DNA of 20,583 nucleotides from a virus. The position numbers were made by a program, and so were the translations under genes. The stretch's first letter is position 1. Each line of letters begins with the position of its first letter. Location: IMG/VR virus record IMGVR_UViG_3300042519_003826, positions 1 through 20,583 of that record, one strand, 5' to 3'. The notes under the pieces are model-generated. The model was not told the origin of the DNA and searched no databases. It worked only from the letters and a program-made list of their open reading frames with translations. Positions 1 to 15,540 of the stretch are shown here, piece by piece.

Positions 1-3000
1 TCAGGTACTTCCGGTACTAGTGGAACCTCAGGTTCTAATGGTAGCTCAGGAACTAGTGGAACCTCAGGTTCAAGCGGCTCAAATGGTTCTTCTGGAACTT
101 CTGGAACATCTGGTTCTAATGGTAGTTCAGGTACTTCTGGTACATCTGGCTCTAATGGATCAAATGGTTCTTCTGGTACTTCAGGTTCTAATGGATCAAA
201 CGGAAGCTCAGGTACATCAGGTTCTAATGGTTCTTCTGGAACAAGCGGTAGCTTAGGAACTTCTGGAACATCAGGTTCAAGCGGCTCAAATGGTTCTTCT
301 GGAACTTCTGGAACATCTGGTTCTAATGGTTCTTCTGGTACTTCTGGTTCAAATGGATCAAACGGAAGCTCAGGAACATCAGGTTCTAATGGATCGAGTG
401 GAAGCTCAGGAACGTCAGGTTCTAATGGTTCTTCTGGAACAAGCGGTAGCTTAGGAACTTCTGGAACATCAGGTTCAAACGGCTCAAATGGTTCTTCTGG
501 TACTTCTGGTTCAAATGGATCAAATGGTTCTTCTGGTACTTCTGGTTCAAATGGATCAAACGGAAGCTCAGGAACATCAGGTTCTAATGGATCGAGTGGA
601 AGCTCAGGAACGTCAGGTTCTAATGGATCAAGTGGAACTTCCGGTTCAAGTGGAACTTCTGGTTCTAATGGATCAAACGGAAGCTCAGGAACTTCAGGTT
701 CAAATGGTTCTTCAGGAACTTCAGGTTCAAATGGCTCAAATGGTTCAAGTGGAACTTCAGGTACTTCAGGTTCAAATGGATCAAACGGTTCAAGCGGAAC
801 ATCAGGTTCAAATGGATCTAATGGATCAAGCGGAACATCCGGTACATCTGGTTCAAACGGATCAAATGGAAGCTCAGGAACTTCAGGTTCAAACGGCAGC
901 TCTGGTACGTCAGGTACATCTGGTTCAAACGGATCAAATGGTTCTTCAGGTACTTCAGGCTCTAATGGATCTTCTGGAACTTCTGGTTCTAATGGCTCAA
1001 GCGGTACATCCGGCTCTAATGGTTCAAATGGTAGTTCAGGAACTTCAGGTTCTTCTGGAACAAGAGGTACTTCTGGTACTTCTGGTACTAGTGGAACTTC
1101 AGGAACATCAGGCTCAAACGGATCAAATGGTTCTTCTGGAACATCTGGAACTTCAGGTTCAAACGGCTCAAATGGAAGCTCTGGAACTAGTGGAACCTCA
1201 GGGTCTAATGGTTCATCTGGAACTTCTGGTTCTAATGGTTCAAGCGGTTCATCTGGTACTTCTGGAACAAGAGGTACTTCTGGAACTTCTGGTACTTCAG
1301 GTACTTCCGGTTCTAATGGTTCTTCTGGAACTTCTGGTACTTCCGGTTCTAATGGTTCTTCTGGAACAAGTGGTACGTCTGGTTCAAATGGATCAAATGG
1401 AAGCTCTGGTACCTCTGGTTCTAATGGATCAAACGGAAGCTCAGGAACTTCAGGTTCTAATGGCTCAAGTGGAACATCTGGTTCAAACGGATCAAATGGA
1501 AGCTCTGGAACTTCTGGTACATCTGGTTCAAATGGCTCAAGCGGAAGCTCAGGAACTTCAGGCTCTAATGGAAGCTCAGGAACGTCGGGTTCAAACGGAT
1601 CAAACGGTTCTTCAGGAACTTCTGGTTCAAGCGGTACATCCGGTTCTTCTGGCACAAGAGGTACTTCAGGTACTAGTGGTACCTCAGGTACATCAGGTTC
1701 AACTGGTACTTCTGGAACAAGCGGTACTTCTGGTTCTAATGGATCAAATGGAAGCTCAGGAACTTCAGGTTCAAACGGTTCAAACGGGTCAAGCGGAACT
1801 TCAGGTTCTTCCGGCTTAACTGGTAGCTCAGGAACTAGTGGAACTTCCGGTTCTAATGGTTCTAGTGGTACATCAGGTTCAAACGGTTCTAATGGTTCTT
1901 CAGGAACGTCAGGGTCAAACGGTTCTAACGGTTCTTCAGGAACGTCAGGGTCAAACGGATCTAATGGTTCTTCTGGAACTTCAGGTTCTAACGGTAGCTC
2001 AGGAACATCTGGTTCAAATGGATCAAACGGTAGCTCAGGAACATCTGGTTCAAATGGCTCTAATGGTAGCTCAGGAACTTCAGGATCTTCAGGAACAAGA
2101 GGTACTTCAGGTACTTCTGGTACTAGTGGAACTTCAGGTTCAAACGGTTCATCTGGAACTTCAGGAACAAGCGGTTCAAACGGTTCAAGTGGAACTTCAG
2201 GTTCTAATGGATCAAATGGAAGCTCAGGAACTTCAGGTTCAAACGGTTCTTCTGGCACATCAGGTTCTAATGGTTCTTCTGGAACTTCAGGAACCAGAGG
2301 TACTTCTGGTACATCTGGAACAAGCGGAACTTCCGGTTCAAACGGATCAAACGGAAGTTCTGGTACATCAGGTTCTAATGGCTCAAATGGATCAAGCGGT
2401 ACTTCTGGTTCTAATGGCTCAAATGGTAGTTCAGGAACTTCAGGTTCTAATGGATCAAATGGAAGCTCTGGTACCTCAGGGTCTAATGGTTCTAATGGTT
2501 CTTCTGGAACTAGTGGAACTTCAGGTTCTAATGGATCTTCTGGAACATCTGGTACTTCAGGTTCTAATGGCTCAAACGGTAGCTCTGGTACTTCCGGCTC
2601 AAATGGTTCTTCAGGAACATCTGGTTCAAATGGATCAAACGGTTCAAGTGGAACGTCAGGTTCTAATGGTTCTTCTGGAACTTCAGGAACAAGAGGTTCT
2701 TCTGGAACTTCGGGAACAAGCGGAACATCAGGTTCAAATGGTTCTAACGGCTCAAGTGGTACCTCAGGTTCTAATGGATCAAATGGTTCTTCTGGAACTT
2801 CTGGTTCTAATGGATCAAATGGTTCTTCTGGAACTTCAGGTTCTAACGGTAGCTCAGGTACTTCCGGTTCTAACGGCTCAAGCGGAACCTCAGGTTCAAA
2901 CGGCTCAAATGGTTCAAGTGGAACTTCAGGTTCAAACGGCTCAAATGGTAGCTCAGGAACATCTGGTTCAAACGGAAGCTCAGGAACTTCAGGTACTTCA

Positions 3001-3771
3001 GGTTCAAATGGTTCTAATGGCTCAAGTGGAACATCAGGTTCAAATGGTTCTTCAGGAACATCAGGTTCAAATGGATCAAACGGTTCAAGCGGTACTTCTG
3101 GTTCAAATGGTTCAAACGGTTCTAGTGGAACTTCAGGTACCTCAGGCTCTAACGGCTCAAATGGTAGCTCAGGAACATCCGGCTCAAATGGTTCTTCAGG
3201 AACTTCTGGAACAAGAGGTACTTCAGGTACTTCTGGTTCAAACGGTAGCTCAGGAACATCCGGCTCAAATGGTTCAAACGGTTCAAGCGGTACGTCTGGC
3301 TCAAACGGTTCTTCGGGAACTTCTGGTTCAAATGGTAGCTCAGGAACCTCTGGTTCAAACGGTTCAAGCGGTAGCTCAGGAACATCCGGCTCAAATGGTT
3401 CAAACGGTTCAAGCGGTACTTCTGGCTCAAATGGAAGCTCAGGTACTTCAGGTTCTAATGGTTCTAACGGAAGTTCTGGTACATCAGGTTCAAATGGCTC
3501 AAATGGATCTTCAGGTACATCAGGTTCAAATGGTTCTAACGGAAGTTCTGGTACATCAGGTTCAAATGGCTCTAACGGAAGTTCTGGTACATCAGGTTCT
3601 AATGGTTCTTCAGGAACTTCCGGCTCAAACGGCTCAAACGGCTCTAGTGGAACTTCTGGTTCAAATGGCAGTTCCGGTACTTCAGGAACACGTGGTACTT
3701 CTGGTACATCCGGTTCTAATGGAAGCTCAGGAACGTCCGGCACATCAGGCTCAACTGGAGCAAGTGGAGCA
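1..3771 (+). repeat. Gly-X-Y (collagen-like) repeat arm 1
   Basis: About 1257 residues of uninterrupted Gly-X-Y triplets, mainly GTS, GSS and GSN, with rare GTR, GSL, GLT and GST. The 9-nt register is never broken, while synonymous codons vary freely (Gly GGT/GGA/GGC, Ser TCA/TCT/AGC/AGT/TCC/TCG, Asn AAT/AAC). That is what selection on the protein rather than on the DNA repeat would give. Arginine occurs only in the Y position (codons at 1063, 1270, 1657, 2098, 2296, 2692, 3214, 3691), and every spacing is a multiple of 9 nt. Confidence 0.93.
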
Positions 3772-5592
3772 GCAATTAGTGACGGTTGGGATTGGGGTAC
3801 TCCATTAGCCAGTACTAAAATTTATAGTAATAATGGTAATTTAGATGCTGCAACTTCTCTATTAAACATAGCGGAAGTTTCATTAACTTCAACCAATTAT
3901 AGTGGAGTGTATCCATCAATTGGTACTGGCACACTAATTAAGACAAATGGTGGAATTGGTGGTCAAATTGTATATTATAGAACAACTGGTGTAGGTTTTG
4001 ATACTGGAATATATTGGGAATTTCCAGTAACTTATGTTTCAGGTACACCTTGGACGCCATCTGCTGGCACTGATATTATTGTTGACATATCTGCTGCAGG
4101 TGTATCAGGCTCGTCTGGTACTTCAGGAACACGTGGTACTTCAGGTACTTCAGGCTCAAATGGTTCTTCTGGAACCTCAGGTTCTAATGGATCAAATGGA
4201 AGCTCGGGTACATCAGGTTCTAATGGTTCTTCTGGAACTTCAGGTTCTAACGGATCAAACGGTAGCTCTGGTTCTTCTGGAACACGAGGTACGTCAGGAA
4301 CCTCTGGTACATCTGGTTCAAACGGTTCTTCTGGAACATCAGGTACTTCAGGTTCTAATGGCAGCTCAGGTACATCAGGAACTTCAGGATCAGCTGGTAC
4401 TAGTGGTACAAGTTTTATATGGAAAGGTATTTGGGTTGGTGGTACTCTTTATGCGATTAATGATGTAATTTCATTTAACGGAAGTTCTTATATTTCTATA
4501 GTATCAAGTAATATAGGAAATAACCCGTCTACTAGTCCAGCGCAATGGACGCTAATGGCATCTGCTGGGTCAAACGGCTCATCAGGTACAAGTGGTACAT
4601 CAGGCTCAAATGGTAGCTCTGGAACTTCTGGTTCAAATGGCTCAAATGGAAGTTCTGGAACTTCAGGAACAAGAGGTACTTCTGGAACTTCTGGTTCAAA
4701 TGGATCATCTGGTACTTCTGGTACATCCGGTTCAAACGGTTCTTCTGGAACTTCTGGTTCTAATGGATCAAATGGCTCATCAGGTACAAGTGGTACATCC
4801 GGCTCAAATGGTAGCTCTGGAACATCAGGTTCTAATGGTTCAAACGGAAGTTCTGGAACTTCTGGAACAAGAGGTACCTCAGGTACGTCTGGTTCTAATG
4901 GGTCTTCTGGAACATCAGGTTCTAATGGCTCAAGTGGAACTTCTGGAACAAGCGGCGCTACTGGTGGAACTGGTTCTTCTGGAACTAGTGGAACAAGCGG
5001 AGTTTCTGGTGCATCAGGTACGGCTGGAACATCCGGAACAAGCGGTGGAACTGGTGGAACTGGTTCAAGCGGAACATCCGGAACTACTGGTTCTTCTGGA
5101 ACTTCAGGCGGTACTACTGGAACTATTACATCAAGTACAGTTGACCGAATAGCCTACTTCTCTGCAGCAACTACCATAGCTGCAACAAATATGCACTACG
5201 ATGTTACAAACGGCAGACTATCTATTGCTAATGGAACCGGTCCAACTTATCGATTAGAAGTAGGCGGCGATATTTATGCAACTGCTAATATTATAGCATA
5301 CTCAGATAGATCAGTTAAAGATAATGTGAAGACCATCACTGATGCTCTAGCTAAGGTAACATCAATGAGAGGAGTTACCTTCACCAGAAATGATCAAGAG
5401 GATAAGACTCGAGTTCATGCGGGTGTTATTGCACAGGAAATGGAAACAGTATTTCCGGAAGTTGTATTTGAAAATGAGAATGGCACCAAGGCAGTTGCCT
5501 ATCCAGCACTTGTATCAGTCCTAATTGAGGCAATCAAGCAGCAACAGCACCAAATTGATGACTTACGGGATCAAATTGAAAAATTATTATAA
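1..5592 (+). CDS. Giant collagen-like tail fibre with C-terminal peptidase S74 chaperone (5' partial)
   Basis: One stop-free frame runs from base 1 to the TAA at 5590-5592, giving at least 1863 residues; the start lies upstream. Visible-residue layout: Gly-X-Y arm 1 (1-1257), globular insert (about 1258-1366), arm 2 (1367-1471), aromatic module resembling a CBM5/12-type carbohydrate binder (1472-1522, starting FIWKGIWVGG), arm 3 (1523 to about 1707), then a head ending in an S74 intramolecular chaperone (about 1735-1863). S74 signs are the SDRSVK motif, with the Ser1768/Lys1773 spacing expected of the self-cleaving dyad, and the HAGVIAQE, FPEVV and YPALVSVLIEAI blocks. S74 domains trimerise phage fibres and then cut themselves off, so this is very probably a trimeric receptor-binding or side fibre. 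The arms hold no proline, no acidic and no aromatic residues. No ATG, GTG or TTG occurs in this frame before about 3907, so start-based gene callers report only low-complexity shadow frames (Met, Leu, Gln, Val-rich). The exact fibre role is inferred. Confidence 0.93.
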   Translation, partial: SGTSGTSGTSGSNGSSGTSGTSGSSGSNGSSGTSGTSGSNGSSGTSGTSGSNGSNGSSGTSGSNGSNGSSGTSGSNGSSGTSGSLGTSGTSGSSGSNGSSGTSGTSGSNGSSGTSGSNGSNGSSGTSGSNGSSGSSGTSGSNGSSGTSGSLGTSGTSGSNGSNGSSGTSGSNGSNGSSGTSGSNGSNGSSGTSGSNGSSGSSGTSGSNGSSGTSGSSGTSGSNGSNGSSGTSGSNGSSGTSGSNGSNGSSGTSGTSGSNGSNGSSGTSGSNGSNGSSGTSGTSGSNGSNGSSGTSGSNGSSGTSGTSGSNGSNGSSGTSGSNGSSGTSGSNGSSGTSGSNGSNGSSGTSGSSGTRGTSGTSGTSGTSGTSGSNGSNGSSGTSGTSGSNGSNGSSGTSGTSGSNGSSGTSGSNGSSGSSGTSGTRGTSGTSGTSGTSGSNGSSGTSGTSGSNGSSGTSGTSGSNGSNGSSGTSGSNGSNGSSGTSGSNGSSGTSGSNGSNGSSGTSGTSGSNGSSGSSGTSGSNGSSGTSGSNGSNGSSGTSGSSGTSGSSGTRGTSGTSGTSGTSGSTGTSGTSGTSGSNGSNGSSGTSGSNGSNGSSGTSGSSGLTGSSGTSGTSGSNGSSGTSGSNGSNGSSGTSGSNGSNGSSGTSGSNGSNGSSGTSGSNGSSGTSGSNGSNGSSGTSGSNGSNGSSGTSGSSGTRGTSGTSGTSGTSGSNGSSGTSGTSGSNGSSGTSGSNGSNGSSGTSGSNGSSGTSGSNGSSGTSGTRGTSGTSGTSGTSGSNGSNGSSGTSGSNGSNGSSGTSGSNGSNGSSGTSGSNGSNGSSGTSGSNGSNGSSGTSGTSGSNGSSGTSGTSGSNGSNGSSGTSGSNGSSGTSGSNGSNGSSGTSGSNGSSGTSGTRGSSGTSGTSGTSGSNGSNGSSGTSGSNGSNGSSGTSGSNGSNGSSGTSGSNGSSGTSGSNGSSGTSGSNGSNGSSGTSGSNGSNGSSGTSGSNGSSGTSGTSGSNGSNGSSGTSGSNGSSGTSGSNGSNGSSGTSGSNGSNGSSGTSGTSGSNGSNGSSGTSGSNGSSGTSGTRGTSGTSGSNGSSGTSGSNGSNGSSGTSGSNGSSGTSGSNGSSGTSGSNGSSGSSGTSGSNGSNGSSGTSGSNGSSGTSGSNGSNGSSGTSGSNGSNGSSGTSGSNGSNGSSGTSGSNGSNGSSGTSGSNGSSGTSGSNGSNGSSGTSGSNGSSGTSGTRGTSGTSGSNGSSGTSGTSGSTGASGAAISDGWDWGTPLASTKIYSNNGNLDAATSLLNIAEVSLTSTNYSGVYPSIGTGTLIKTNGGIGGQIVYYRTTGVGFDTGIYWEFPVTYVSGTPWTPSAGTDIIVDISAAGVSGSSGTSGTRGTSGTSGSNGSSGTSGSNGSNGSSGTSGSNGSSGTSGSNGSNGSSGSSGTRGTSGTSGTSGSNGSSGTSGTSGSNGSSGTSGTSGSAGTSGTSFIWKGIWVGGTLYAINDVISFNGSSYISIVSSNIGNNPSTSPAQWTLMASAGSNGSSGTSGTSGSNGSSGTSGSNGSNGSSGTSGTRGTSGTSGSNGSSGTSGTSGSNGSSGTSGSNGSNGSSGTSGTSGSNGSSGTSGSNGSNGSSGTSGTRGTSGTSGSNGSSGTSGSNGSSGTSGTSGATGGTGSSGTSGTSGVSGASGTAGTSGTSGGTGGTGSSGTSGTTGSSGTSGGTTGTITSSTVDRIAYFSAATTIAATNMHYDVTNGRLSIANGTGPTYRLEVGGDIYATANIIAYSDRSVKDNVKTITDALAKVTSMRGVTFTRNDQEDKTRVHAGVIAQEMETVFPEVVFENENGTKAVAYPALVSVLIEAIKQQQHQIDDLRDQIEKLL
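217..612 (+). repeat. 198-nt tandem duplication inside arm 1
   Basis: Bases 325-428 are identical to 523-626 (104 nt). Bases 238-302 match 436-500 with one mismatch in the first 60 or so bases, again at an offset of 198 nt (66 codons). The rare GSL triplet, which is a marker because Leu is otherwise almost absent, occurs in both copies. A related copy at an offset of 207 nt links about 64-122 with 271-329. Boundaries are approximate because the background is itself repetitive. The near-identity at synonymous sites marks this as a recent duplication compared with the rest of the arm. Confidence 0.8.
4099..4413 (+). repeat. Gly-X-Y repeat arm 2
   Basis: A short collagen-like arm of about 105 residues between the first globular insert and the aromatic module. 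It uses the same GTS/GSS/GSN triplets as arm 1. GTR triplets have Arg codons at 4132 and 4285. The last triplets become GSAGTSGTS just before the FIWKG module starts at 4414. Confidence 0.9.
4567..5115 (+). repeat. Gly-X-Y repeat arm 3
   Basis: A collagen-like arm of about 180 residues after the aromatic module. GTR triplets have Arg codons at 4672 and 4870, 198 nt apart, the same distance as the tandem duplication in arm 1. The last 45 residues or so change composition to GAT, GGT, GVS, GAS, GTA and GTT triplets before entering the trimerising head, a transition often seen where phage collagen-like shafts meet a globular tip. Confidence 0.9.
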
Positions 5593-5595
5593 GTA

Positions 5596-6288
5596 ATGCC
5601 GATAGACGGAACACCAACTGGAGTAATGGCGGTCGTTTGGGCGCCAGACGACAAATCTTCGATTGCTGCACTATTAACTCAACAGTCTGGGGCTTCTGCC
5701 AGTGTCGGGAATCAGATTTACCCAGATAAGACGGGCGCTCCTGAGTTTAGATGGAAAATACTCAGTGGTACATATGCTGGTACTTATGACATCAACCGAA
5801 ATGACCCACAAGGATTAAGCTATTGGGCTGCAGCCAACGCAGTTGCAGGTGCAATTGGATTTGACCAGTTTTATAATTATCGACACTGGACTGATGAGCA
5901 CACATATGACGGCGAAGTTATGAATAATTCTTCGTTTGACATAATGGTTGAATTAGTGATAAACGATGGAACCAGTGGTCCTTATACCTATTTTACTAAT
6001 ACCCCATTTAGTACTGGCCTCACGAGTATAAACGGTGGACCAGTTACATATTACTATCAGCACTTCATGCCAAATGCAGACTTTGAGCATACCATTAATT
6101 TAGACAATAGTGCACCATTCCCAGTAAACTTAGTGCAGCTTCGGCTAACTGACATTGATACTGGCTTTAATATTGCCGACTTTGTTGGTGGACCTCCAAT
6201 ATCGATACCTCCAGGCCCGATCTCGTTTTTCACCCCTGGATTACCATTTTTTAGAAGATATTCTATTACAATTGAAATTGCTCCATAA
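5596..6288 (+). CDS. Unrecognised virion-associated protein, 230 aa
   Basis: I do not recognise this family. The gene starts 3 nt after the fibre stop codon, so it is very likely cotranscribed with it. The protein has no signal peptide or membrane segment. It is rich in aromatic residues, Gly, Pro, Thr and Asn with alternating hydrophobic patterns, suggesting a beta-rich structural fold. The C-terminal half has a proline-rich loop (GGPPISIPPGPISFF, about residues 197-211) before a final strand. Position directly behind the fibre suggests a fibre partner, assembly factor or tip protein; that is inference only. Translational coupling to the fibre gene is plausible because no clear ribosome-binding site precedes the ATG. 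Confidence 0.75.
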   Translation: MPIDGTPTGVMAVVWAPDDKSSIAALLTQQSGASASVGNQIYPDKTGAPEFRWKILSGTYAGTYDINRNDPQGLSYWAAANAVAGAIGFDQFYNYRHWTDEHTYDGEVMNNSSFDIMVELVINDGTSGPYTYFTNTPFSTGLTSINGGPVTYYYQHFMPNADFEHTINLDNSAPFPVNLVQLRLTDIDTGFNIADFVGGPPISIPPGPISFFTPGLPFFRRYSITIEIAP

Positions 6289-6316
6289 TTAGTTAAAAAC
6301 AAAAATAAATAAAATC

Positions 6317-6556
6317 ATGACTACTAATATTCAAAACTATTCAATACTCGGCAAAACTGCAACCAGTATTAAATTTATACCCATGACCTATGAATTAGGC
6401 GCAACCTCAGTTTCTGTGATTTATCAATTAATGGATAGCGGCAATGCAATTATCTGTAGTGGTGCAGTTCGGTTAACTGATATATCTGATTGGGGTACAA
6501 ATGATAGTGTTATTGTTACCAAAGTCTTAACTGCCCTAGGCTTAACTGCTGCATAA
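6317..6556 (+). CDS. Small unrecognised protein, 79 aa
   Basis: A short complete gene with an ATG start 28 nt after the previous stop, preceded by an A-rich stretch (AAAATAAATAAAATC) rather than a Shine-Dalgarno site. The protein is mostly predicted beta (SIKFIPMTYELGATSVSVIYQLMD) with a short C-terminal helix ending ALGLTAA. It has no cysteine-pair or enzyme motif beyond two isolated residues. Placement after the fibre genes suggests a small virion or fibre-associated protein. Codon use and AT content resemble the flanking genes, which supports it being real. Function unknown. Confidence 0.7.
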   Translation: MTTNIQNYSILGKTATSIKFIPMTYELGATSVSVIYQLMDSGNAIICSGAVRLTDISDWGTNDSVIVTKVLTALGLTAA

Positions 6557-6580
6557 TTTTTTTAAGATTACATAACCTTA

Positions 6581-6616
6581 TTGCTAAACTTTAGTATAAA
6601 ATAAAAAGTTTAGCAA
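6581..6616 (+). promoter_or_regulatory. Perfect 12-bp hairpin ending 5 nt before the glycosyltransferase start
   Basis: TTGCTAAACTTT (6581-6592) is exactly complementary to AAAGTTTAGCAA (6605-6616), with a 12-nt AT-only-plus-one-G loop (6593-6604). The 3' arm runs into the purine stretch AAAAGG just before the ATG at 6622, so folding could limit ribosome access. No T-run follows the stem on the + strand, so it is a poor intrinsic terminator there. The loop contains TATAAAATA, which resembles but does not match the T4 late -10 box. It could be a translational control hairpin, a processing site or a promoter embedded in an inverted repeat. Confidence 0.7.
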
Positions 6617-6621
6617 AAGGC

Positions 6622-9432
6622 ATGTCGATTAAAATTAAAGCGCACACCTCAATTATTGGGGAAACTGGATACAATTGTCATTCTAGAAATTTCTTTAAAG
6701 CCCTAAATTCTCTAGAAGATTTAAGAGTTGATGTCAGAAATTGGACAGTAGGTTCAACCTGGACGGGTTATAATAATGATGAACCTCATAATGATGAGTA
6801 TTATATTGATACTGAGTTAAAAACAATCCTAACTCAACAAACTTTACAGACCCCAAACCTTTCACAAGAGTTTCCACTATATCAAAACTATCCAAATCCT
6901 GGAAAACCTGATGTTCACATTGTCTTAAATGATGTTAATCATAAATATTTTGGTGATAAGTATGATGGCCCAAAAATTGCCTATAATGTTTGGGAAACTA
7001 CTAAATATCCAGAAGATTTTTTTAAACACTTACAAACCTTTGACCAAGTTTGGGTTCCAAGCAGCTGGCAAAAAGAGTGCACAATTGTCCAAGGAATTCG
7101 AGCCGATAAAGTAAAGGTTGTACCTGAGGGAGTTGATACCCAAATGTTTAAACCCATTTCTCGAGAGACCTCATTTCCAGAAGGTCGCCCATTTAGATTT
7201 GTTGTAGTTGGCCGCTGGGAATATCGCAAATCTACTAAAGAAATTATAAAAGCATTCATTGATACCTTTTCAGAAGATGAAAATGTTGAACTTATCCTAA
7301 ATGTTGAAAATCCATTTGCAAATGACGACTGTTCAAATACTCAAGAACGTCTTGCCAAATTTGGCTTAACTCATAAAGGCATTAAAATACTTACTCATTT
7401 AAGCAAAGCTGACTATGTCAACTTATTACAAACGGCTGATGTATTTGTTTCTTGTGCTCGTAGTGAAGGTTGGAATCTTCCACTAATTGAGGCAATGGCC
7501 TGCGGTACCCCATCAATCTATTCTGATTGGGGAGCTCAATTAGAATTTGCTGCAGGTAAAGGTTTACCAGTAGCAACCCATGGAGAAGTTCCAGCTGGTG
7601 TTGCAAATGACGAATCTTGGAATCCAAATGCTCCAGGTAATTTCGTTGAGCCAAACTTTGAAGATCTTAAGCTTAGACTTAGAGAAGTTTATGATAATTA
7701 TGAAATTTATAAAAAATCCGCGCTAATGGAATCAAAACAAATCCGAACCCAATTCACTTGGGAAAATGCAGCAAAAATCGCACAAGATCACATCCAGGAC
7801 CTCATTCAACCTGAGGTAAATGAATACTCAACTGACTTTGCATGGGTGACCTGCGGTAACCTGGCCTATATGCCGATCATTCAGAAATTAGCTGAATCGC
7901 TATTGGAATTCTCAAACCGTAAACTTATTGTTTATGGAATTGACTGTGATGTTCCGTTTGACTATTTGCCAAATGTAATTGCCCGAAAATTAACAATTCC
8001 CTACTATTCAAACTATGATAAATGGTATTGGAAGCAATATGCCTGTCTTGCAGCCTTTGAAGAAAGTTTTGAAAATTTTGTTTGGTTGGATGGTGATATT
8101 ATTGCAAACCATACAATCGATAAATTATCAGAGCATTTTGCAAATATCGAAAACTATCCATTAGCTGATATTCATGTACAGGAAGATTTTATTGGATATT
8201 ATACAAAACCTGACGGTTCAAGAGGTCAGCAATTATTTAATGAAAATTTATGCAAAGCCAAAGGAGTTAAGCGTCTTGCTACCAAAGCCCATATTTGCAT
8301 GTACGTATACAATCGAAATTGCGAATGGTGGTTTAATGAAATCTTAACAGTATATAAAGAAACTGATCTTGCGGACTATCCAAGTTTATTACAATGGAAT
8401 GATGAAGGTATTGATAATTACCTAAGATGCAAATATGGTTATAATAGGTTTTTACCAATTTCAAATTTTGATGTTTCTGAATGGGACGGCGATTTACTTG
8501 GAACAACTGGCAAAGCAATGGAACACTTTATTTCTTTTTGGAGAGATCAAGGCCCTAAGAATTTTGGAAAAGTATACGGCTGGCAATTTATCCCAAAGAA
8601 TAAAGACCAAATTCTATACTTTCATGGAAATAAAAATCTAGGCTTTGCTCAAATCATGATTGACCATATTAAAGCTCAAAGAGACCAAAATTTCCATGAT
8701 ACTGAATATTTCTTTGTTGCTAAGGACGAAATTAAAAATTTAGGTTCAATTAAACAAGTACAAGGTGGTACAATGGATATTGCCTATAAATACGGATGGG
8801 ATTATGCAATTTATCATGAAATTTATAACTTAACTGATTATGAACATCCACACCGCTCAGAAAATCCAGTTGTTAAAATCCAACCAGGAGATGTAGTGGT
8901 TGATCTTGGTGGAAATATTGGAATCTTTACTCGGTATGCATATCATATGGGAGCAAGTAAAATTGTAACCTTTGAACCTGATCGTAGGTATTTTGAGATC
9001 CTAAAACAAAATGCGCCAGCAAATGCCGTCCTATTTAATGCAGCAATTGGAGATCAATTAGGAACCTTAACCTTAACTGAAAGTTCTCACTTAGGTGGCT
9101 CTAACTTATGGCATCAAAAAGATCCAACTGTTACTCAATACGACGTTAATCTATATACCCTAGACTATATTTTAGACAATGGTTTAATTGACCGAATTGA
9201 CTTCTTAAAGGTAGATATTGAAGGTTCTGAAATTATTGCACTAAAAGGCATTAGTGATGCTAACTTAGCTAAGATTCGAAATGTTGCAGTTGAATATCAT
9301 CATGAACACCTTAATTTTAATGAAGAATTACGTGATGAATTTATTGTCAGATTTAACAGATTAGGTTTTAATTCATACTTACTATTTTGCGGCCCTAATA
9401 ATGCACTACAATTAATTTATTTTTGGAAATAA
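6622..9432 (+). CDS. Triple-domain GT4 glycosyltransferase / GT-A-like glycosyltransferase / FkbM methyltransferase
   Basis: The 936 residues split into three enzyme modules. Residues 1-400 look like a GT4 (GT-B fold) glycosyltransferase: VVVGRWEYRKS at 194-204 for donor phosphate contacts, and the E-x7-E motif at Glu282/Glu290 in SEGWNLPLIEAMACG. Residues about 410-700 look like a GT-A-fold transferase with a DxD metal/nucleotide-sugar motif, WLDGDI, at Asp490-Asp492. Residues about 740-936 match FkbM-type methyltransferases: the SAM loop VVDLGGNIGIF (759-769), the acidic FEPD and the KVDIEGSE motif (863-870). I infer it adds two sugars in turn, then O-methylates. It is the first gene of a three-gene operon; the next starts 1 nt after its stop. 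Soluble, with no membrane segment. Target unknown; the neighbouring Ser/Thr-rich fibre is a candidate. Confidence 0.88.
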   Translation: MSIKIKAHTSIIGETGYNCHSRNFFKALNSLEDLRVDVRNWTVGSTWTGYNNDEPHNDEYYIDTELKTILTQQTLQTPNLSQEFPLYQNYPNPGKPDVHIVLNDVNHKYFGDKYDGPKIAYNVWETTKYPEDFFKHLQTFDQVWVPSSWQKECTIVQGIRADKVKVVPEGVDTQMFKPISRETSFPEGRPFRFVVVGRWEYRKSTKEIIKAFIDTFSEDENVELILNVENPFANDDCSNTQERLAKFGLTHKGIKILTHLSKADYVNLLQTADVFVSCARSEGWNLPLIEAMACGTPSIYSDWGAQLEFAAGKGLPVATHGEVPAGVANDESWNPNAPGNFVEPNFEDLKLRLREVYDNYEIYKKSALMESKQIRTQFTWENAAKIAQDHIQDLIQPEVNEYSTDFAWVTCGNLAYMPIIQKLAESLLEFSNRKLIVYGIDCDVPFDYLPNVIARKLTIPYYSNYDKWYWKQYACLAAFEESFENFVWLDGDIIANHTIDKLSEHFANIENYPLADIHVQEDFIGYYTKPDGSRGQQLFNENLCKAKGVKRLATKAHICMYVYNRNCEWWFNEILTVYKETDLADYPSLLQWNDEGIDNYLRCKYGYNRFLPISNFDVSEWDGDLLGTTGKAMEHFISFWRDQGPKNFGKVYGWQFIPKNKDQILYFHGNKNLGFAQIMIDHIKAQRDQNFHDTEYFFVAKDEIKNLGSIKQVQGGTMDIAYKYGWDYAIYHEIYNLTDYEHPHRSENPVVKIQPGDVVVDLGGNIGIFTRYAYHMGASKIVTFEPDRRYFEILKQNAPANAVLFNAAIGDQLGTLTLTESSHLGGSNLWHQKDPTVTQYDVNLYTLDYILDNGLIDRIDFLKVDIEGSEIIALKGISDANLAKIRNVAVEYHHEHLNFNEELRDEFIVRFNRLGFNSYLLFCGPNNALQLIYFWK

Positions 9433-9433
9433 T

Positions 9434-10099
9434 ATGAGATCACTAAATACAATTGCCCTTTCTAAAGGCACTGACAAATCTTCTGAAATTCACAACTATT
9501 GTGTAAAATACGAGAAGTGGTTACCATTTAACCAATTAGAGCCTTTAAAAATTCTTGAAATTGGGGTATTGCATGGAGAGTCTCTTTCTACTTGGAGAGA
9601 ATACTATCCAAATGCAACAATTATTGGCATTGATATTGAACCTTCATGCAAACAATACGAAAATCCAGATAAAAAGGTTTTTGTAGAAATTGGGTCTCAA
9701 GATGATGCTAATTTTTTAAAATGGGTTGCCCAAAAATGGGGACCATTTGATATGGTACTTGATGATGGGTCTCACATTAACCGTCATGTAATTACCTCAT
9801 TTAATCATTTAATTGACCACGTAAAACCGGAAGGAGTATATGTAATTGAAGATACTTGCACGTCGTATTGGGAAGATTACGAAGGCGGTTTTAAACACCC
9901 AGGTTCCTCTATTGAATTTACAAAAAATCTAGTAGATGATATTAATTTTAATGGGCAAATGCAAGAAGAATTTTGGAACGTGCATGCTAGAAGAGAAGAC
10001 TTCTTAACTAAACAGACAAAAGAAAAAGGTTTAACAATTCGCACTGATATTGAATCAGTAAATTTCCTAAATGGAATAACAATAATAACAAAAAGATAA
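9434..10099 (+). CDS. Class I SAM-dependent methyltransferase (macrocin/mycinamicin O-methyltransferase-like)
   Basis: The 221 residues begin with a GTDKSSEIHNYCVKYEKWL stretch typical of a methyltransferase group related to sugar O-methyltransferases of macrolide pathways (MycE-like). The SAM-binding core follows: ILEIGVLHGESLSTW (motif I, about residues 38-52), the acidic GIDIEP at the end of beta-2, DMVLDDGSH (motif with paired Asp, about 109-117, possibly metal binding as in MycE-type enzymes) and GVYVIEDT. It sits between two glycosyltransferase fusions with gaps of 1 and 6 nt, so it is almost surely cotranscribed and probably methylates a sugar added by them. The sugar target is inferred from family and context. 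A small-molecule role cannot be excluded. Confidence 0.87.
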   Translation: MRSLNTIALSKGTDKSSEIHNYCVKYEKWLPFNQLEPLKILEIGVLHGESLSTWREYYPNATIIGIDIEPSCKQYENPDKKVFVEIGSQDDANFLKWVAQKWGPFDMVLDDGSHINRHVITSFNHLIDHVKPEGVYVIEDTCTSYWEDYEGGFKHPGSSIEFTKNLVDDINFNGQMQEEFWNVHARREDFLTKQTKEKGLTIRTDIESVNFLNGITIITKR

Positions 10100-10105
10100 G
10101 TAAAA

Positions 10106-12838
10106 ATGGCACATCCTCAACAGCAAGAATTTTGTAAAAAAATGAGTGGTATTTTCCCAAAATATTTCACTGGCAAAAAAGTTTTAGATATTGGATCATT
10201 GGACATAAATGGCAATAACCGATTTATGCTAACCAACTGTAATTATATTGGATTAGACGTGGGAGAAGGCCAAAATGTTGATGTTATCCAAGTTGCTCAT
10301 TTATATGATGCACCAGACGAGCAGTTTGACTTGATAATTTCAACTGAAGTATTTGAACATGATATGTTCTATGAAATGTCATTACAAAACATTATTCGAA
10401 TGCTAAAACCTGGTGGAGCATTTATATTTACATGTGCTTCAATTGGAAGACCTGAACATGGAACCAGAAAGTCAGATGGAAGTTGGGCAGCTCCATTGCT
10501 TGCAAATATTTCAGAAGAATGGTCTGATTATTATAAGAACTTAACCGAAGAAGATATTCATAAAGTAAAAGGTTTTGACGAAGCTTTTCCAGATGGAGTT
10601 TTTGAATATAATTCAAACCCAGGCGATCTATATTTCTTTGGAGTTAAAGGTGGAATTGCAAATGACATAAAATACTCAGTAGATAATAGACCTTCAATAA
10701 TTAGGCCGAATGAATATCCTGATGATATTTTTGTTGTTGATACTTGGCCAAATACTCCAGAAAAAGAATCTGACCTAATTGAGTGTATTAAAAAACTTAG
10801 AGAATTTTCAGGAATTCCAATCTTATTGGTTTCGCATTATGCAATTAAACCGGAAATTCAAAAATTAGTTGACTATTATTTGTATGATAAAGAAAATCCA
10901 CTGCTATTAAATTCTGAATTTGAAGAATATAAAGTAGGCAGCGGTAGATGGTGTACATTTGGAAAAACTAGAGTTGATACAGAAATGGAATATCACCATG
11001 ACTATGCAATTTGGAGATCAATGACACATGCTTTTAATTTCTGTAAATATCTAGGAAAGAAGATGATTCACTTTATGGAATATGATAATCTACTTGATAC
11101 CTTTCAATATCGCCAAGCCTTTTTAGAAAGAGCTCATCAGCATGATGCCGTAATTTATGAATATCATGAAGGCTCGGTAACTGATACTCACCTAGCTAAA
11201 TTTATGGCAACCTTTATTTTCTCAATTAAAACTGAGGTTGCCCTAAATATTATAAATGAAGTAAAAACAAAAAAGGATTACTTTATGGATCGCCCAAATG
11301 GTTGGCAATTAGAAAGAGTATTTTTACACTATTTAGAAAAACACGCTAAGGATATTTGGGTAACTAATTATATTGCAAATTCAAATGAATTAAATACACA
11401 AGCTGTTTGGAATAGAGATGGTATCCTAAGAGACGATGCTAAATTTCAAATTTATACAGCAGCTGACGATTTTAATAATTTATATTTACATCTAGTTTCA
11501 GGATTTCACGATGAACCTGCAACCAAAGATTACCTACTTGAAATTAAGTATAATGGAACAGTGCAGTTTACTACTCTTAAAAAGGGAGACTTTCTACTTA
11601 TTAAATTAGGCGAATATCGTAAAGGTTATACAGTAACTGTTAATTATTTAGGTAAATGCGCATTCACTCAATTTTTAAATGATGACTTCCAAAATTTTGC
11701 AAAAATGAATCATGTAACAATTGATGGAGTTCAGGCACTACCTACCGTAAATCATAATTTAGTAGATGGACCGTTTGTTGAATTAAAAACTACAAGTCCA
11801 ATGAAATATCAAGTAGACTTTATTGATAATGAAACTGACAAATTAGTTTATTCAACAAAATTAAGCGGCGGAGCGTGGGCAAAAAGTTCAATCAAATATT
11901 TTAAAGATTGGAAAATTAAAGTTACGGACCAGAACGGAAATCCAGTAATAATATTTAATACTGACCTAAAAGGCAAGCGTGTCTATATTCCACTAGAGTC
12001 AAAAGCACTAGGCGATACTTTAGCATGGTTTCCGTATGTTGAAGAATTTAGAAAGAAGCACGATTGTATTATAATCTGTTCAACTTTTTGGAATCAACTA
12101 TTTAAAGATACTTATCCAAATATTGAATTAATTGAACCTGGCCAAATGGTAACTAATTTACATGCAATGTACAGAATTGGATGGTTCCATAATGGAGATA
12201 ATATTGATCGTGAAAAAAATCCTAGAGATTTTAAATTAGGTCCATTACAAAGAACTGCAACCGATATTTTAGGTTTGGAATATAAAGAGGTTAAACCAAT
12301 TATTAATTATCCAACTGGTCCAATAGTTAAGAAAAAAGTAGGCCTTGGAATTCATAGTACTGCTCAAGCAAAATATTGGAATAATCCAACCGGCTGGCAA
12401 GAAGTTACAGATTGGTTAATTGCAAATGGTTATGAACCTGTAATATTATCTAGAGAAGAAGACGGTTATATGGGAAACCGCAATCCGGTTGGAGCTGCTA
12501 AACTTGAAGCTGGTACAATTGACCGAGTAATTACTGAATTAACTGAATGCGCAGCATTTATTGGAATAAGTAGTGGATTAACTTGGCTAGCTTGGGTAAC
12601 AAATACTCCAAGTATTCAAATCTCCGGTTTTACTGAACCTTATAATGAACCAGATGGCGATATTATTAAATTAGCTGCACCAACTGGAGCTTGTTCAGGT
12701 TGCGCAAACCGATTAAGGCTTAATGCTGGTGATTGGAATTGGTGCCCAGATCAAAAAGGTACACCTCGTCAATTCGAATGTTCAAAATTAATCACTGCTG
12801 ATCAGGTAATTGAAAAGTTAAAGACAATTCTAATATAG
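10106..12838 (+). CDS. Methyltransferase / GT-A-like / TibC-type O-heptosyltransferase fusion
   Basis: Three modules are visible in 910 residues. Residues about 1-185 are a class I methyltransferase (VLDIGSLDINGNNRF, GLDVGEG, FDLIISTEVFEH, MLKPGGAFIFT). Residues about 205-430 (FVVDTWPN, HFMEYDN) look like a GT-A-type glycosyltransferase, with EYDN as a possible DxD variant. After a beta-rich linker, residues about 620-910 match the autotransporter O-heptosyltransferase family (TibC/Aah): ESKALGDTLAW (631-641), GLGIHSTAQAKYWNNP, FIGISSGLTWLAW, and the zinc-ribbon-like iron finger with Cys863, Cys866, Cys880 and Cys892 around CSGC, WCP and GTPRQFECS. TibC-family enzymes attach heptose to Ser in bacterial adhesins. 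All four metal-ligand cysteines are present, so the domain should be folded and active. The donor sugar and acceptor here are not known. Confidence 0.87.
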   Translation: MAHPQQQEFCKKMSGIFPKYFTGKKVLDIGSLDINGNNRFMLTNCNYIGLDVGEGQNVDVIQVAHLYDAPDEQFDLIISTEVFEHDMFYEMSLQNIIRMLKPGGAFIFTCASIGRPEHGTRKSDGSWAAPLLANISEEWSDYYKNLTEEDIHKVKGFDEAFPDGVFEYNSNPGDLYFFGVKGGIANDIKYSVDNRPSIIRPNEYPDDIFVVDTWPNTPEKESDLIECIKKLREFSGIPILLVSHYAIKPEIQKLVDYYLYDKENPLLLNSEFEEYKVGSGRWCTFGKTRVDTEMEYHHDYAIWRSMTHAFNFCKYLGKKMIHFMEYDNLLDTFQYRQAFLERAHQHDAVIYEYHEGSVTDTHLAKFMATFIFSIKTEVALNIINEVKTKKDYFMDRPNGWQLERVFLHYLEKHAKDIWVTNYIANSNELNTQAVWNRDGILRDDAKFQIYTAADDFNNLYLHLVSGFHDEPATKDYLLEIKYNGTVQFTTLKKGDFLLIKLGEYRKGYTVTVNYLGKCAFTQFLNDDFQNFAKMNHVTIDGVQALPTVNHNLVDGPFVELKTTSPMKYQVDFIDNETDKLVYSTKLSGGAWAKSSIKYFKDWKIKVTDQNGNPVIIFNTDLKGKRVYIPLESKALGDTLAWFPYVEEFRKKHDCIIICSTFWNQLFKDTYPNIELIEPGQMVTNLHAMYRIGWFHNGDNIDREKNPRDFKLGPLQRTATDILGLEYKEVKPIINYPTGPIVKKKVGLGIHSTAQAKYWNNPTGWQEVTDWLIANGYEPVILSREEDGYMGNRNPVGAAKLEAGTIDRVITELTECAAFIGISSGLTWLAWVTNTPSIQISGFTEPYNEPDGDIIKLAAPTGACSGCANRLRLNAGDWNWCPDQKGTPRQFECSKLITADQVIEKLKTILI

Positions 12839-12848
12839 ATAATTCTAT

Positions 12849-13466
12849 ATGCTATTAAACGCCAGACAAAACAGTTTTCTCATAAACTTACCAATGGACT
12901 TCTTTAATGATGTAGTACAGCAAAAGTACAACAAATATTATAGAAGTCTGCTATTGCCATATAAGTCATTATCTGATTTTATGGCATCAACTATACAAAC
13001 TGTGAATTTTCCAGGATTTTCTTCAACTTTACCAACTCAAATCCGAACACTTGGCAAGATTCAAGAATTACAGAGTGCAAAACCAATAGCTGATCAATTT
13101 ACTAGAGAGCTTAAATTAACTTTTAAGTTAACTGATGCATACCTAAACTATTTTATATTTTTAGATAATGCGCTAAATTATTTAGAACCAGCAAATGTTA
13201 ATCCAGAGAATCTTGGCAATAATTCATTAGGCCAAGCGTTAACGGTAAATCCAATCTCAAATGTAAATCATCCATTCTTTCATCCAATCCGATTAACTCT
13301 CTTAAATAATGAAGGTTATGCAGTTTCGTCTATTATTTTTAATAGACCAATGCTAAAGTCATTAAGTGAAATGAATCTATCATATTCATCAATAACTCCG
13401 CAGTTTACAACTTTCACTGCAACTTTCCAATATTATAATTTTGATCTGGAATTAGATTTTGACTAA
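12849..13466 (+). CDS. Probable tail-tube-fold virion protein (gp19/gp54-like)
   Basis: The 205 residues have a pattern I associate with contractile-tail tube proteins: an N-terminal NSFLINLP strand, then IQTVNFPGFS and a charged strand, RELKLTFKLTDAYLNYF, and repeated beta strands to a terminal ATFQYYNFDLELDFD. T4 gp19 is shorter (about 160 residues), so a tube initiator or baseplate-hub tube paralogue such as gp54 or gp48 is also possible. It follows the glycosylation operon by 10 nt and its stop codon directly abuts the stop of the opposite-strand gene at 13467. Assignment rests on pattern memory and context with other tail genes. Confidence 0.5.
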   Translation: MLLNARQNSFLINLPMDFFNDVVQQKYNKYYRSLLLPYKSLSDFMASTIQTVNFPGFSSTLPTQIRTLGKIQELQSAKPIADQFTRELKLTFKLTDAYLNYFIFLDNALNYLEPANVNPENLGNNSLGQALTVNPISNVNHPFFHPIRLTLLNNEGYAVSSIIFNRPMLKSLSEMNLSYSSITPQFTTFTATFQYYNFDLELDFD

Positions 13467-14327
13467 TTATGCATTTTGATCAACAAATCCAAAGCAAACT
13501 GTACAATAGTATTCCGACACGGTGTAATTAAAACTTACCATACTTACGGTACCGTCTATTCGAATAATATTATATCCTTCTTGTCCAGTAAACTGAGTGT
13601 ATTGAGTTCCATTAACTGCATTTTGATAAGTGGTAGCAGTTTCCCAAATTGGAGTAAATGGCGCAGATACTTGAACTGGCACCTGTAATCCAGGATTACC
13701 TACGCTGGCAAATGCAACCAATGGATCTGTAACAGGTTGGCTAAATATTGCTGTAAATATTCCAGCTGATTGATTTAAAATTTGAATACCATCAAACGGT
13801 ACTCCATATTCTTCTGGGAATGTATTTGCCGCATACATACCAGTATGCTGTTCCATACCTCCAGCGCTTTGACTAATTGTAATTCCAATTGAGTTTTGAC
13901 CTACTCCTGATGCTGAACTTCCGGTAACTGAACTAATTGTCATCCATTGAAATCCTGAACTTCCAAAACTTGACCAATTATTCCAATATCCGTTATCAGT
14001 TAACCAGGTACTTGCAGCATTGCCGCTTATAAAAACTTGGCCGCTTACGCTATTTGCAACGTTAATGAAAGCTGCTTCGGTCAATGAGGTTGCTCTATTA
14101 AATCCAACTGATGCAGTTGTACCGAATATTGGAGTTGGGTGTAGTCCATCAGGCTGCGAATACGCAATAACATATCCCAAATCTTCATCAGGACCTTGCC
14201 ACCATTGAACTCCACCAGGTGAAGTTGTGTAATCTTGGGCGTCTACGCTAATTGCTAGATCTCCAACTTGGTCAGTTCCAGCAATTGGAGAACCTGTATT
14301 GTATGCAAATGATTTTGAAGTTGACAT
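13467..14327 (-). CDS. Putative virion surface / adhesin-like beta protein, 286 aa
   Basis: No confident family. The N-terminal part (SFAYNTGSPIAGTDQVGDLAI, then WWQGPDEDLGYVIAY and ASVGFNR) resembles a module I have seen recurring in structural proteins of large environmental phages. The middle is rich in Ser, Gly and Trp (about residues 110-165). The C-terminal half (about 175-286) reads as a beta sandwich with PFDGIQILNQSAGIFTAIF and a final strand holding CTVCFGF. No signal peptide. It is on the strand opposite the surrounding tail genes and 17 nt downstream of the gp15-like gene, so those two probably share a transcript. An exposed decoration or receptor-binding role is inference. Confidence 0.6.
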   Translation of the reverse strand: MSTSKSFAYNTGSPIAGTDQVGDLAISVDAQDYTTSPGGVQWWQGPDEDLGYVIAYSQPDGLHPTPIFGTTASVGFNRATSLTEAAFINVANSVSGQVFISGNAASTWLTDNGYWNNWSSFGSSGFQWMTISSVTGSSASGVGQNSIGITISQSAGGMEQHTGMYAANTFPEEYGVPFDGIQILNQSAGIFTAIFSQPVTDPLVAFASVGNPGLQVPVQVSAPFTPIWETATTYQNAVNGTQYTQFTGQEGYNIIRIDGTVSMVSFNYTVSEYYCTVCFGFVDQNA

Positions 14328-15173: not shown

Positions 15174-15540
15174 TGGTGGAGATAGGCGGAATCGAACCGC
15201 CGTCCAAAAAACCTCTAATTAAACTTTCATTTACACGCTTAGTCCATTTTTCTAATTGGACGAAATATCTTATTCTTTAACGACTTAAAGTTAAAGTCGG
15301 TAACGGTTCGACTTGGCCGCTACGCCATGCTGGTTTTGCAACTTTGGTTAGTCAAGCAGTTGCCGCTTGGTTACTTATGCAGCTAAAAGCTCTTCAGTAA
15401 CAGGAGTGTTAACGCCTTGGTTAACTAGGCTCCAGAAAGTAGTGTTGCCACTTATTGTTTGTAATACATTTTAACGAGTCTTAGCATCATCCTCGGCGTG
15501 CAAGCGTAACCGATAATTTCTGTCAAAACCGGTTATCCCC
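15174..15540 (-). ncRNA. ssrA: Transfer-messenger RNA (tmRNA)
   Basis: A complete 367-nt one-piece tmRNA. The 5' GGGGATA (15540-15534) pairs over 7 bp with TATCTCC next to the 3' end. The third pair is G-U, the alanine identity element. The 3' end has a T arm with 5-bp GGCGG/CCGCC stem and TTCGATT loop, and an encoded ACCA. Flanking blocks GACTAAGCGTGTAAATG and TTTTTTGGACG match the conserved 3' half of bacterial tmRNAs, and GCACGCCGAGGATG corresponds to the GCAUGCCGAGG block near the 5' end. tmRNA with SmpB rescues stalled ribosomes and tags the product for proteolysis. It is flanked by phage tail genes with its own promoter and terminator, and it is intact, so it looks like a phage gene and not an integration scar. 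No smpB is visible here. Confidence 0.94.
15375..15449 (-). other. tmRNA tag reading frame, 24 residues plus stop
   Basis: After AATAAGT, which aligns with the AAUAGUC that precedes the resume codon in E. coli tmRNA, the frame starts on GGC and runs 24 codons to TAA. The tag begins GNTTFWSLVN and ends PVTEELLAA. The terminal Leu-Ala-Ala is the expected ClpXP-type degron end. The resume codon is inferred by alignment from memory. The length is well above the common 8-15 residues. Confidence 0.82.

Follow-up and report, generated by a model that had tools for sequence, protein, structure and literature searches.

A proline-free collagen-like phage fibre beside a TibC-family glycosyltransferase operon that may coat it with sugar

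The IMG/VR virus record IMGVR_UViG_3300042519_003826, analysed here over its whole length of 20,583 bases and referred to as the window, belongs to a large aquatic virus that infects bacteria and carries a gene for a collagen-like phage fibre rich in serine and threonine, followed by genes encoding glycosyltransferase and methyltransferase modules, one of which belongs to the TibC family. An earlier note on this DNA had proposed a phage system that coats, and perhaps stabilizes, its own fibre. On the evidence of comparative genomics, we consider it probable that the products of the operon synthesize O-linked sugars and attach them to the (Gly-Ser/Thr-Ser/Thr/Asn)n repeats of the fibre encoded by the phage itself. 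The genes concerned are:

1..5592, + strand: Ser/Thr-rich, Pro-free collagen-like phage fibre with a C-terminal Peptidase_S74 chaperone (Pfam, triplet count); its 5' end is lost at the contig end
5596..6288, + strand: protein of 230 amino acids without assigned function, right after the fibre
6622..9432, + strand: protein of 936 amino acids with a GT4 module (about residues 100-394), a GT8-like GT-A module (about 405-740) and an FkbM methyltransferase (758-916)
9434..10099, + strand: methyltransferase of the Methyltransf_24 family (Pfam; phrog_21658, E 6e-32)
10106..12838, + strand: protein of 910 amino acids with Methyltransf_23 (1-181), a GT-A-fold module plus beta domain (about 200-545) and a TibC-family domain (548-908)
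12849..13466, + strand: tail tube-like protein (phrog_45, E 7e-7), starting 10 bases past the TibC gene

The fibre and its enzyme genes

The fibre matches Pfam Collagen with 687 bits and Peptidase_S74 with 56 bits, and its long unbroken G-X-Y runs together with this fibre-type C-terminal domain identify it as a collagen-like phage fibre. The earlier note had described giant Ser/Thr collagen arms of about 1500 residues of GTS, GSS and GSN triplets, and this is what the count returned: five runs comprise 1533 residues, or 511 triplets, with 192 occurrences of GTS, 164 of GSN and 129 of GSS, and serine or threonine occupies 834 of the 1022 X and Y positions (623 Ser, 211 Thr), while 12 are charged and none is proline. 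The longest run extends over 1257 residues, against a maximum of 21 across 200 residue shuffles. Because serine is written with all six of its codons, and threonine and glycine with four each, inside the runs, the repeat is kept at the protein level. As the fibre has no proline, formation of a triple helix is uncertain; glycosylated threonine in the collagen-like repeats of Bacillus BclA and Riftia cuticle collagen is said to stabilize the helix without hydroxyproline. The counterpart open reading frame (ORF) in a relative of 271,160 bases (G001; 80333-91522, 3730 codons) holds 3039 residues of G-X-Y, and downstream of it lie a second collagen ORF of 870 amino acids and the same three enzyme genes.

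Several observations on the repeat stand apart from these. The antisense of the repeat holds an open frame rich in EVP and LEP (window 3-3743, - strand), and the record of Microcystis phage Mel-JY01 (L159:2-3049, + strand) annotates two hypothetical proteins antisense over its collagen ORF, the sense annotation being confined to the last 178 codons; such fibres may therefore be misannotated. The fibre has 168 N-X-S/T motifs, mostly produced by the order GSN-GS, and family scans reported no N-glycosyltransferase family among the scanned window enzymes. Its second non-collagen insert (about 4411-4569, FIWKGIW...AQWTLM) resembles a small carbohydrate-binding module by eye; a Pfam scan at E 0.001 reported no such module there.

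The same note's count of at least four glycosyltransferase and three methyltransferase modules after the fibre held up against Pfam, PHROG, NCBI-model, fold and PDB matches. In the 936-residue protein, the GT4 module matches phrog_2170 (E 5e-39) and the FkbM methyltransferase scores 87.5 bits against a cut-off of 37.7. The module between them carries an invariant DGD and a nearly invariant HGNK, motifs that we take to be those of GT8-like enzymes, and it folds like the GT8 glycogenin with a modest TM-score to query of 0.33-0.45 (best E 4e-7); its assignment as GT8-like is thus a qualified one, based on this modest fold match and the conserved motifs. The next gene scores 31.2 bits as Methyltransf_24 (cut-off 26.3), and the N-terminal module of the 910-residue protein 34.2 bits as Methyltransf_23 (cut-off 27). 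The middle module of the latter protein has a GT-A fold (VIA Z 14.7 over 181 residues, rmsd 3.4), this fold assignment covering residues 1-246 of the model.

The C-terminal domain scores 267.4 bits with TIGR04414, above the NCBI cut-off of 200, matches PDB 4rap with E 2e-50, and aligns over residues 566-901 with TibC from enterotoxigenic Escherichia coli. The equivalents of Asp110, Lys230 and Cys339, Cys342, Cys358 and Cys370 are invariant in 30 phage TibC domains, so that the earlier assignment of a TibC-family glycosyltransferase stands with its catalytic residues kept. According to excerpts of PMC4358343, TibC acts on protein, the D110A variant is inactive, K230A is deficient in sugar binding and mutants of the Cys residues leave the substrate unmodified; among the mapped sites given there, serine is modified and threonine is not. 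Judged from its sequence, the window domain is a TibC-family member and not an autotransporter enzyme, since no autotransporter family was found among the window proteins in family scans (six proteins in one, seven in the other) and the domain lies outside the 27-row autotransporter branch described below. It resembles the TibC/AAH autotransporter heptosyltransferases (TIGR04414; PDB 4rap) in sequence family, in the key Asp, Lys and Cys residues and in having a gene for a repetitive surface protein nearby, but differs in lying outside their branch, in being fused to a methyltransferase and a GT-A module, and in being phage-borne with a collagen-like phage fibre as its neighbour.

The gaps among the last four genes, including the tail tube gene, are 1, 6 and 10 bases. 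When 5400-13600 was searched for promoters and terminators, the outcome was at chance, with 38 promoter-like sites against 36.2 expected, so the operon structure rests on gene spacing; the tight run into the tail tube gene places the operon inside the structural module. This placement bears on the possibility that the operon alters a host surface glycan, such as the O-chain or core of lipopolysaccharide (LPS), against superinfection, and lies near fibre genes since both serve host recognition. Glycosyltransferases and rfaE of pelagimyophages are interpreted in this way in excerpts of PMC7029224, and the GT4 and FkbM modules weakly match polysaccharide-pathway models too. We nevertheless regard host-glycan modification as unlikely, as the TibC enzyme works on protein, its relatives in the bacterial loci examined gene by gene lie near (G-S/T-S/T)n or strand-loop-strand repeat proteins, and the cluster runs on into the tail tube gene.

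Co-occurrence of the repeat and TibC-family genes in viruses

The GTSGTSGSNG DNA pattern retrieved at least 119 viral stretches, 118 of them with a G-X-Y ORF and most of these Ser/Thr-rich. Fifty of the 119 listed stretches, being distinct contigs longer than 34 kb without a previously known TibC, were used for a repeat-selected comparison (one 34.5-kb contig was left out). TIGR04414 was found in 15 of these 50 records, 14 above cut-off. It was absent from all 50 records selected for proline-type collagen (two-sided Fisher 2e-5), which were taken from 120 and include 12 under 30 kb, and from all 30 records selected with a random pattern (one-sided 3e-4), which are the contigs longer than 11 kb among 48; the random pattern was a second one, the first having given 4 stretches only. 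In three of the 50 repeat-bearing records (L044, L131 and L138) the longest G-X-Y ORF is under half Ser/Thr, and L131 is among the 15 TibC-positive records.

The reverse selection gave a matching picture. From the 30-domain alignment, at least 590 viral and at least 570 bacterial stretches with TibC relatives were obtained, and 80 loci of each kind were analysed, these being the best-scoring and not random draws. A Ser/Thr collagen ORF lies in the flanks of 33 of the 80 viral loci, and of 17 of the 31 whose flanks both reach at least 9 kb, versus none of 48 random and none of 120 Pro-collagen control loci, which are shorter (mean 7.5 and 8.4 kb). Elsewhere on the contig, the pattern was present in 11 of 40 further TibC contigs (7 with many matches), drawn from 47 flank-negative contigs with the 7 under 14 kb left out, and in none of 50 control records (30 random, 20 Pro-collagen). 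When sequences were clustered at 85% identity and only clusters holding a TibC-selected member were counted, the repeat was present in 39 of 65. Where one locus holds both, as in 34 clusters, repeat and TibC are a median of 1.9 kb apart (no more than 3 kb in 21 clusters and 500 bases in 6), and the layouts vary: the repeat is upstream on the same strand in 17, downstream on the same strand in 8, downstream on the opposite strand in 8 and upstream on the opposite strand in 1. The initial TibC set showed a G-X-Y ORF in 33 of 37 loci, the four without (L022, L023, L029 and L038) being cut near the gene. All of these counts use ORFs taken from stop to stop in the six frames, and some may not be genes.

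A tblastn search with the window TibC domain of a collection of 50,697 phage records returned four records, two of which share length and position. In Microcystis phage Mel-JY01 (PP395634) a Ser/Thr collagen ORF lies 1.7 kb before the TibC gene, and in LR756501 one lies about 4 kb from it.

The enzyme also has a regular partner in viruses. In 56 of the 80 viral loci TibC has a GT4-like gene or domain immediately upstream or fused to it, and 72 hold one anywhere in the locus, compared with 4 of the 80 bacterial loci and none of 168 control loci. By sequence comparison, a GT4 and TibC core seems to be the phage form, to which the GT8-like, GT-A and methyltransferase modules seem to have been added in the window's branch.

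Bacterial relatives and the sugar donor

A tree of 130 rows (quick method, midpoint root), in which repeat-positive rows were labelled by hand from the collagen-selected records, the two named phages and the seven contigs with the pattern elsewhere, sets apart an autotransporter branch of 27 bacterial rows (support 100), with the window outside it. The best-scoring bacterial TibC relatives also lie outside this branch. Strand-loop-strand-like ORFs, recognized with a crude pattern, occur in 20 of the 27 autotransporter-branch rows, while a (G-S/T-S/T)n ORF is in the locus of 1 of the 27 rows as against 17 of 18 other bacterial clusters; the eighteenth is a Chloroflexi metagenome-assembled genome (MAG) with the pattern present in its genome. 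Four of the 18 clusters (L349, L350, L357 and L359) may in fact be contigs of phages that binning placed in MAGs.

In Methylobacter, Methylomicrobium and a Methylococcaceae MAG, the TibC-like gene adjoins one for a protein of 233-316 amino acids with an apparent signal peptide and (GTS)n, and in two other Gammaproteobacteria, proteins with lipobox-like starts and (GSS)n or (GTS)n tails are encoded next to the TibC-like gene or one gene away. The repeat proteins of the five bacterial loci that were examined closely are thus secreted or lipid-anchored by sequence; three other loci (L352, L360 and L362) are less clear, with the repeat ORF farther away or possibly not a gene. In one gammaproteobacterial locus, lipoprotein-like genes with Gly-Ser/Thr-Ser tails (L366:8597-9025 and 11267-11890, both - strand) flank the TibC-like gene, one of them a gene away.

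A fresh test used 301 genomes of the order of Methylobacter luteus, which we take to be Methylococcales, and gave 17 TibC loci in 16 genomes, of which 15 regions were examined (one cut by a contig end). Six of seven high-scoring loci have the repeat adjoining, two of the loci having been known before (L560 = L358, L562 = L356); in four of the five new ones a (G-S/T-S/T)n protein is encoded at a distance of 91-232 bases, and the fifth adjoins a secreted Ser-rich protein that has no run. By contrast, none of seven low-scoring loci has the repeat and five of the seven lie by strand-loop-strand-type adhesins, as judged by eye. Within this order the partner, so far as gene neighbourhood reveals it, thus follows the enzyme branch.

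These pairs also bear on the idea that the targets of the operon's enzymes are other virion proteins (capsid, tail tube or globular fibre parts), as in mycobacteriophages, the repeat not being the main acceptor. TibC phages without the repeat exist, the next gene in the window is tail tube-like, and capsid and tail tube glycans of mycobacteriophages are reported in work cited in excerpts of PMC12619734. Yet the viral enrichment is with Ser/Thr and not proline collagen, and the bacterial gene pairs stand in loci without recognized phage genes, so that we hold modification of other virion proteins to be quite unlikely. A broader proposal, on which the sequence comparisons leave us evenly divided, is that a second branch of TibC, as yet without a name and found in phages as well as in several bacterial phyla, specifically serves (Gly-Ser/Thr-Ser/Thr)n proteins, adds heptose or a related sugar and permits a Pro-free, sugar-stabilized collagen, with some phages bringing genes for ADP-heptose (adenosine diphosphate heptose).

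Genes of this last kind accompany TibC in part of the phages. An HldC-like gene directly follows TibC in two loci (L484 and L467) and lies one gene later in a third (L449), and the gene after it encodes, in all three, a short PfkB kinase that scores best with the model of the heptose-7-phosphate kinase domain, TIGR02198 (102-122 bits, as against about 45 for the next unrelated model). HldC-like and HldA-like genes occur together in 23 of the 80 viral TibC loci versus none of 168 control loci. Of 25 long TibC phage records, 9 match the adenylyltransferase model TIGR02199, each below cut-off. Reading the HldC-like gene as TagD, a glycerol-3-phosphate cytidylyltransferase, was rejected on its lower score (60-71 versus 86-103 bits). 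As the HldC- and HldA-like genes accompany TibC, the comparison points to ADP-heptose as the donor in the phages that have them. Outside phages, a TibC-family gene lies near an ORF with both HldA- and HldC-like parts in two Lachnospiraceae loci (L425 and L427); Lachnospiraceae should have no LPS.

Weighing the association, a proposed mechanism and its setting

The following weigh against the fibre as acceptor. Thirty-five of the 50 repeat-bearing records, many of them fragments, have no TibC, so that other enzymes or none may serve such phages. TibC also occurs without the repeat: LR756504 (636 kb) has TibC, no collagen ORF within 20 kb of it and no pattern match genome-wide, G489 (183 kb) carries TibC without the repeat, and one phage subclade of 24 rows (support 100) lacks the repeat in 20 and has it in 4, this repeat-poor subclade being where most loci with heptose-type genes fall. 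The HldA- and HldC-like proteins score below the curated TIGR02198 and TIGR02199 cut-offs, and no TIGR02199 match was found in five records of the window's kin (G001 and G172-G175); G176, nearly a copy of G175, shows a weak match with two stops inside it. The window's lineage would need a sugar from the host or a different donor. The Pro-collagen control is unmatched for lineage and habitat, and the two genes may be near each other merely through clustering of phage fibre regions. Finally, a sample chosen by terminase (31 of 80 loci, contigs of at least 18 kb) had TibC in 4 contigs (3 above cut-off), the repeat in 4 and both in 1 (one-sided p 0.44).

A strict, universal pairing is therefore rejected, as each gene occurs without the other. 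The earlier note had named an operon without the repeat and a repeat without the operon as one outcome that would refute it, and both have been found in part, in the records just listed. The co-occurrence in related phages that it called for is seen as enrichment of TibC with Ser/Thr collagen and is at chance in the terminase-sampled set. Its self-glycosylating fibre system, which it had linked by gene order only, is now further backed by enrichment over two controls, varied layouts, bacterial gene pairs and HldC/HldA-like neighbours, although not as a strict rule.

The terminase sample also speaks for co-inheritance, under which aquatic T4-like phages would commonly have both genes, grouped by fibre-region mosaicism, with no link between enzyme and substrate: about 0.5 contigs with both were expected, and TibC is commoner in this sample than in the 80 control records, none of which has it, so that lineage and habitat explain part of the enrichment. 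Co-inheritance as the whole explanation is nonetheless very improbable in our judgement, given the varied layouts and orientations, the spread over the tree, the two bacterial settings (signal-peptide proteins in Methylococcaceae, lipoprotein-like proteins in other Gammaproteobacteria) and the finding that, in a single bacterial order, the two enzyme branches have different partners.

Two further observations concern these exceptions. Among 56 ORFs that surround Ser/Thr fibres lacking TibC (24 of 33 loci), GT2 was matched three times and GT25 and GT4 once each within the 25 of 33 families listed, and 56 ORFs around Pro-collagens gave GT2 once among 25 of 47 families listed, a suggestive sign of alternative glycosyltransferases in too small a sample to use. 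G489 has two long adjoining ORFs (L674:6069-11155), the first opening with a similar ALGDT motif; they are perhaps a tandem heptosyltransferase-like pair.

Since the TibC branch of the key enzyme is often near this Gly-Ser/Thr repeat in phages and in some bacteria, the data suggest that these phages put a sugar coat on their own fibres. During infection, the TibC-family domain would move a first sugar, from ADP-heptose or a relative, onto serine and perhaps threonine of the repeat, the GT4, GT8-like and GT-A modules would lengthen the chain, and the three methyltransferases would cap the glycan with O-methyl groups. The S74 chaperone would complete trimer assembly, and a collagen fibre with neither proline nor hydroxyproline would be made stiffer, and shielded, by its coat of sugar. 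The acceptor is proposed from comparative genomics; the donor in the window's lineage, the identity of the sugar, the order of extension and methylation and the stabilization of the fibre helix by the coat are what we infer.

Glycosylation by a virus of its own proteins is already known, from Mimivirus collagen (PMC4691112) and from mycobacteriophage virions (via PMC12619734), as far as excerpts of these sources go. In Mimivirus, L230, a lysyl hydroxylase/glucosyltransferase, glycosylates the virus's own collagen-like proteins, as is proposed for the window, but it targets hydroxylysine and has a hydroxylase domain (excerpts of PMC4691112), whereas a Pfam scan reported no lysyl hydroxylase domain in six window proteins. 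Mycobacteriophages likewise bear glycans on virion proteins, which sit on capsid and tail tube C-termini in the work cited in PMC12619734, whereas the fibre repeat is the proposed acceptor here. The EPcl tail fibres of E. coli O157 prophages are also collagen-like fibres of tailed phages, yet they have proline in nearly half of the X positions, as against none in the 511 triplets of the window, and their recombinant protein was unglycosylated (excerpts of PMC3368898). Pelagimyophages have glycosyltransferases, rfaE and collagen repeats in tail-related regions or genomes, but their glycosyltransferases are interpreted as modifying host LPS, without a fibre acceptor, in the excerpts of PMC7029224. 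Among the papers listed in searches of the open-licence PMC literature, we recognized none linking TibC-type enzymes to phage fibres or collagen repeats. New here are the enrichment of TIGR04414 with the Ser/Thr repeat, a non-autotransporter branch with (G-S/T-S/T)n partners, and HldC/HldA-like genes after TibC in some phages.

If the proposal is true, it explains the cohesion, in a bacterial virus, of a Pro-free collagen arm of 1533 residues, which at the collagen rise of 0.286 nm per residue is about 430 nm or longer. It would also mean that heptosylation of proteins reaches beyond autotransporters, to collagen-like repeats of phages and free-living bacteria, and it would assign one shared function to the glycosyltransferase, methyltransferase and rfaE-like genes that are interpreted, in excerpts of PMC12619734 and PMC7029224, as modifying DNA or LPS. 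As both genes lie within 2 kb in Microcystis phage Mel-JY01 and its record names the host strain, the question is directly testable in a named phage.

The 230-residue protein between fibre and enzymes had no family match in PHROG or Pfam and is 46-49% identical in relatives (L011, L012 and L014) whose adjoining enzymes share 89-96%. Beyond the tail tube-like gene, the window contains:

3' of the tail tube-like gene, - strand: two genes
15174-15540, - strand: full-length transfer-messenger RNA (tmRNA; Rfam RF00023, 118.7 bits against a gathering threshold of 47)
15637-17331: baseplate wedge
18320-20290: terminase

In the phage collection, the best matches of the terminase, at 30-37% identity, include huge-phage records and T4-like phages (Sphingomonas phage PAU and Tenacibaculum phages). 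The TibC, GT8-like and GT-A modules are 77-87% identical to those on a contig (254 kb) from a 'Bacteroidetes' MAG, no more than a hint at the window's host. The phage tmRNA encodes the tag peptide GNTTFWSLVNQGVNTPVTEELLAA.
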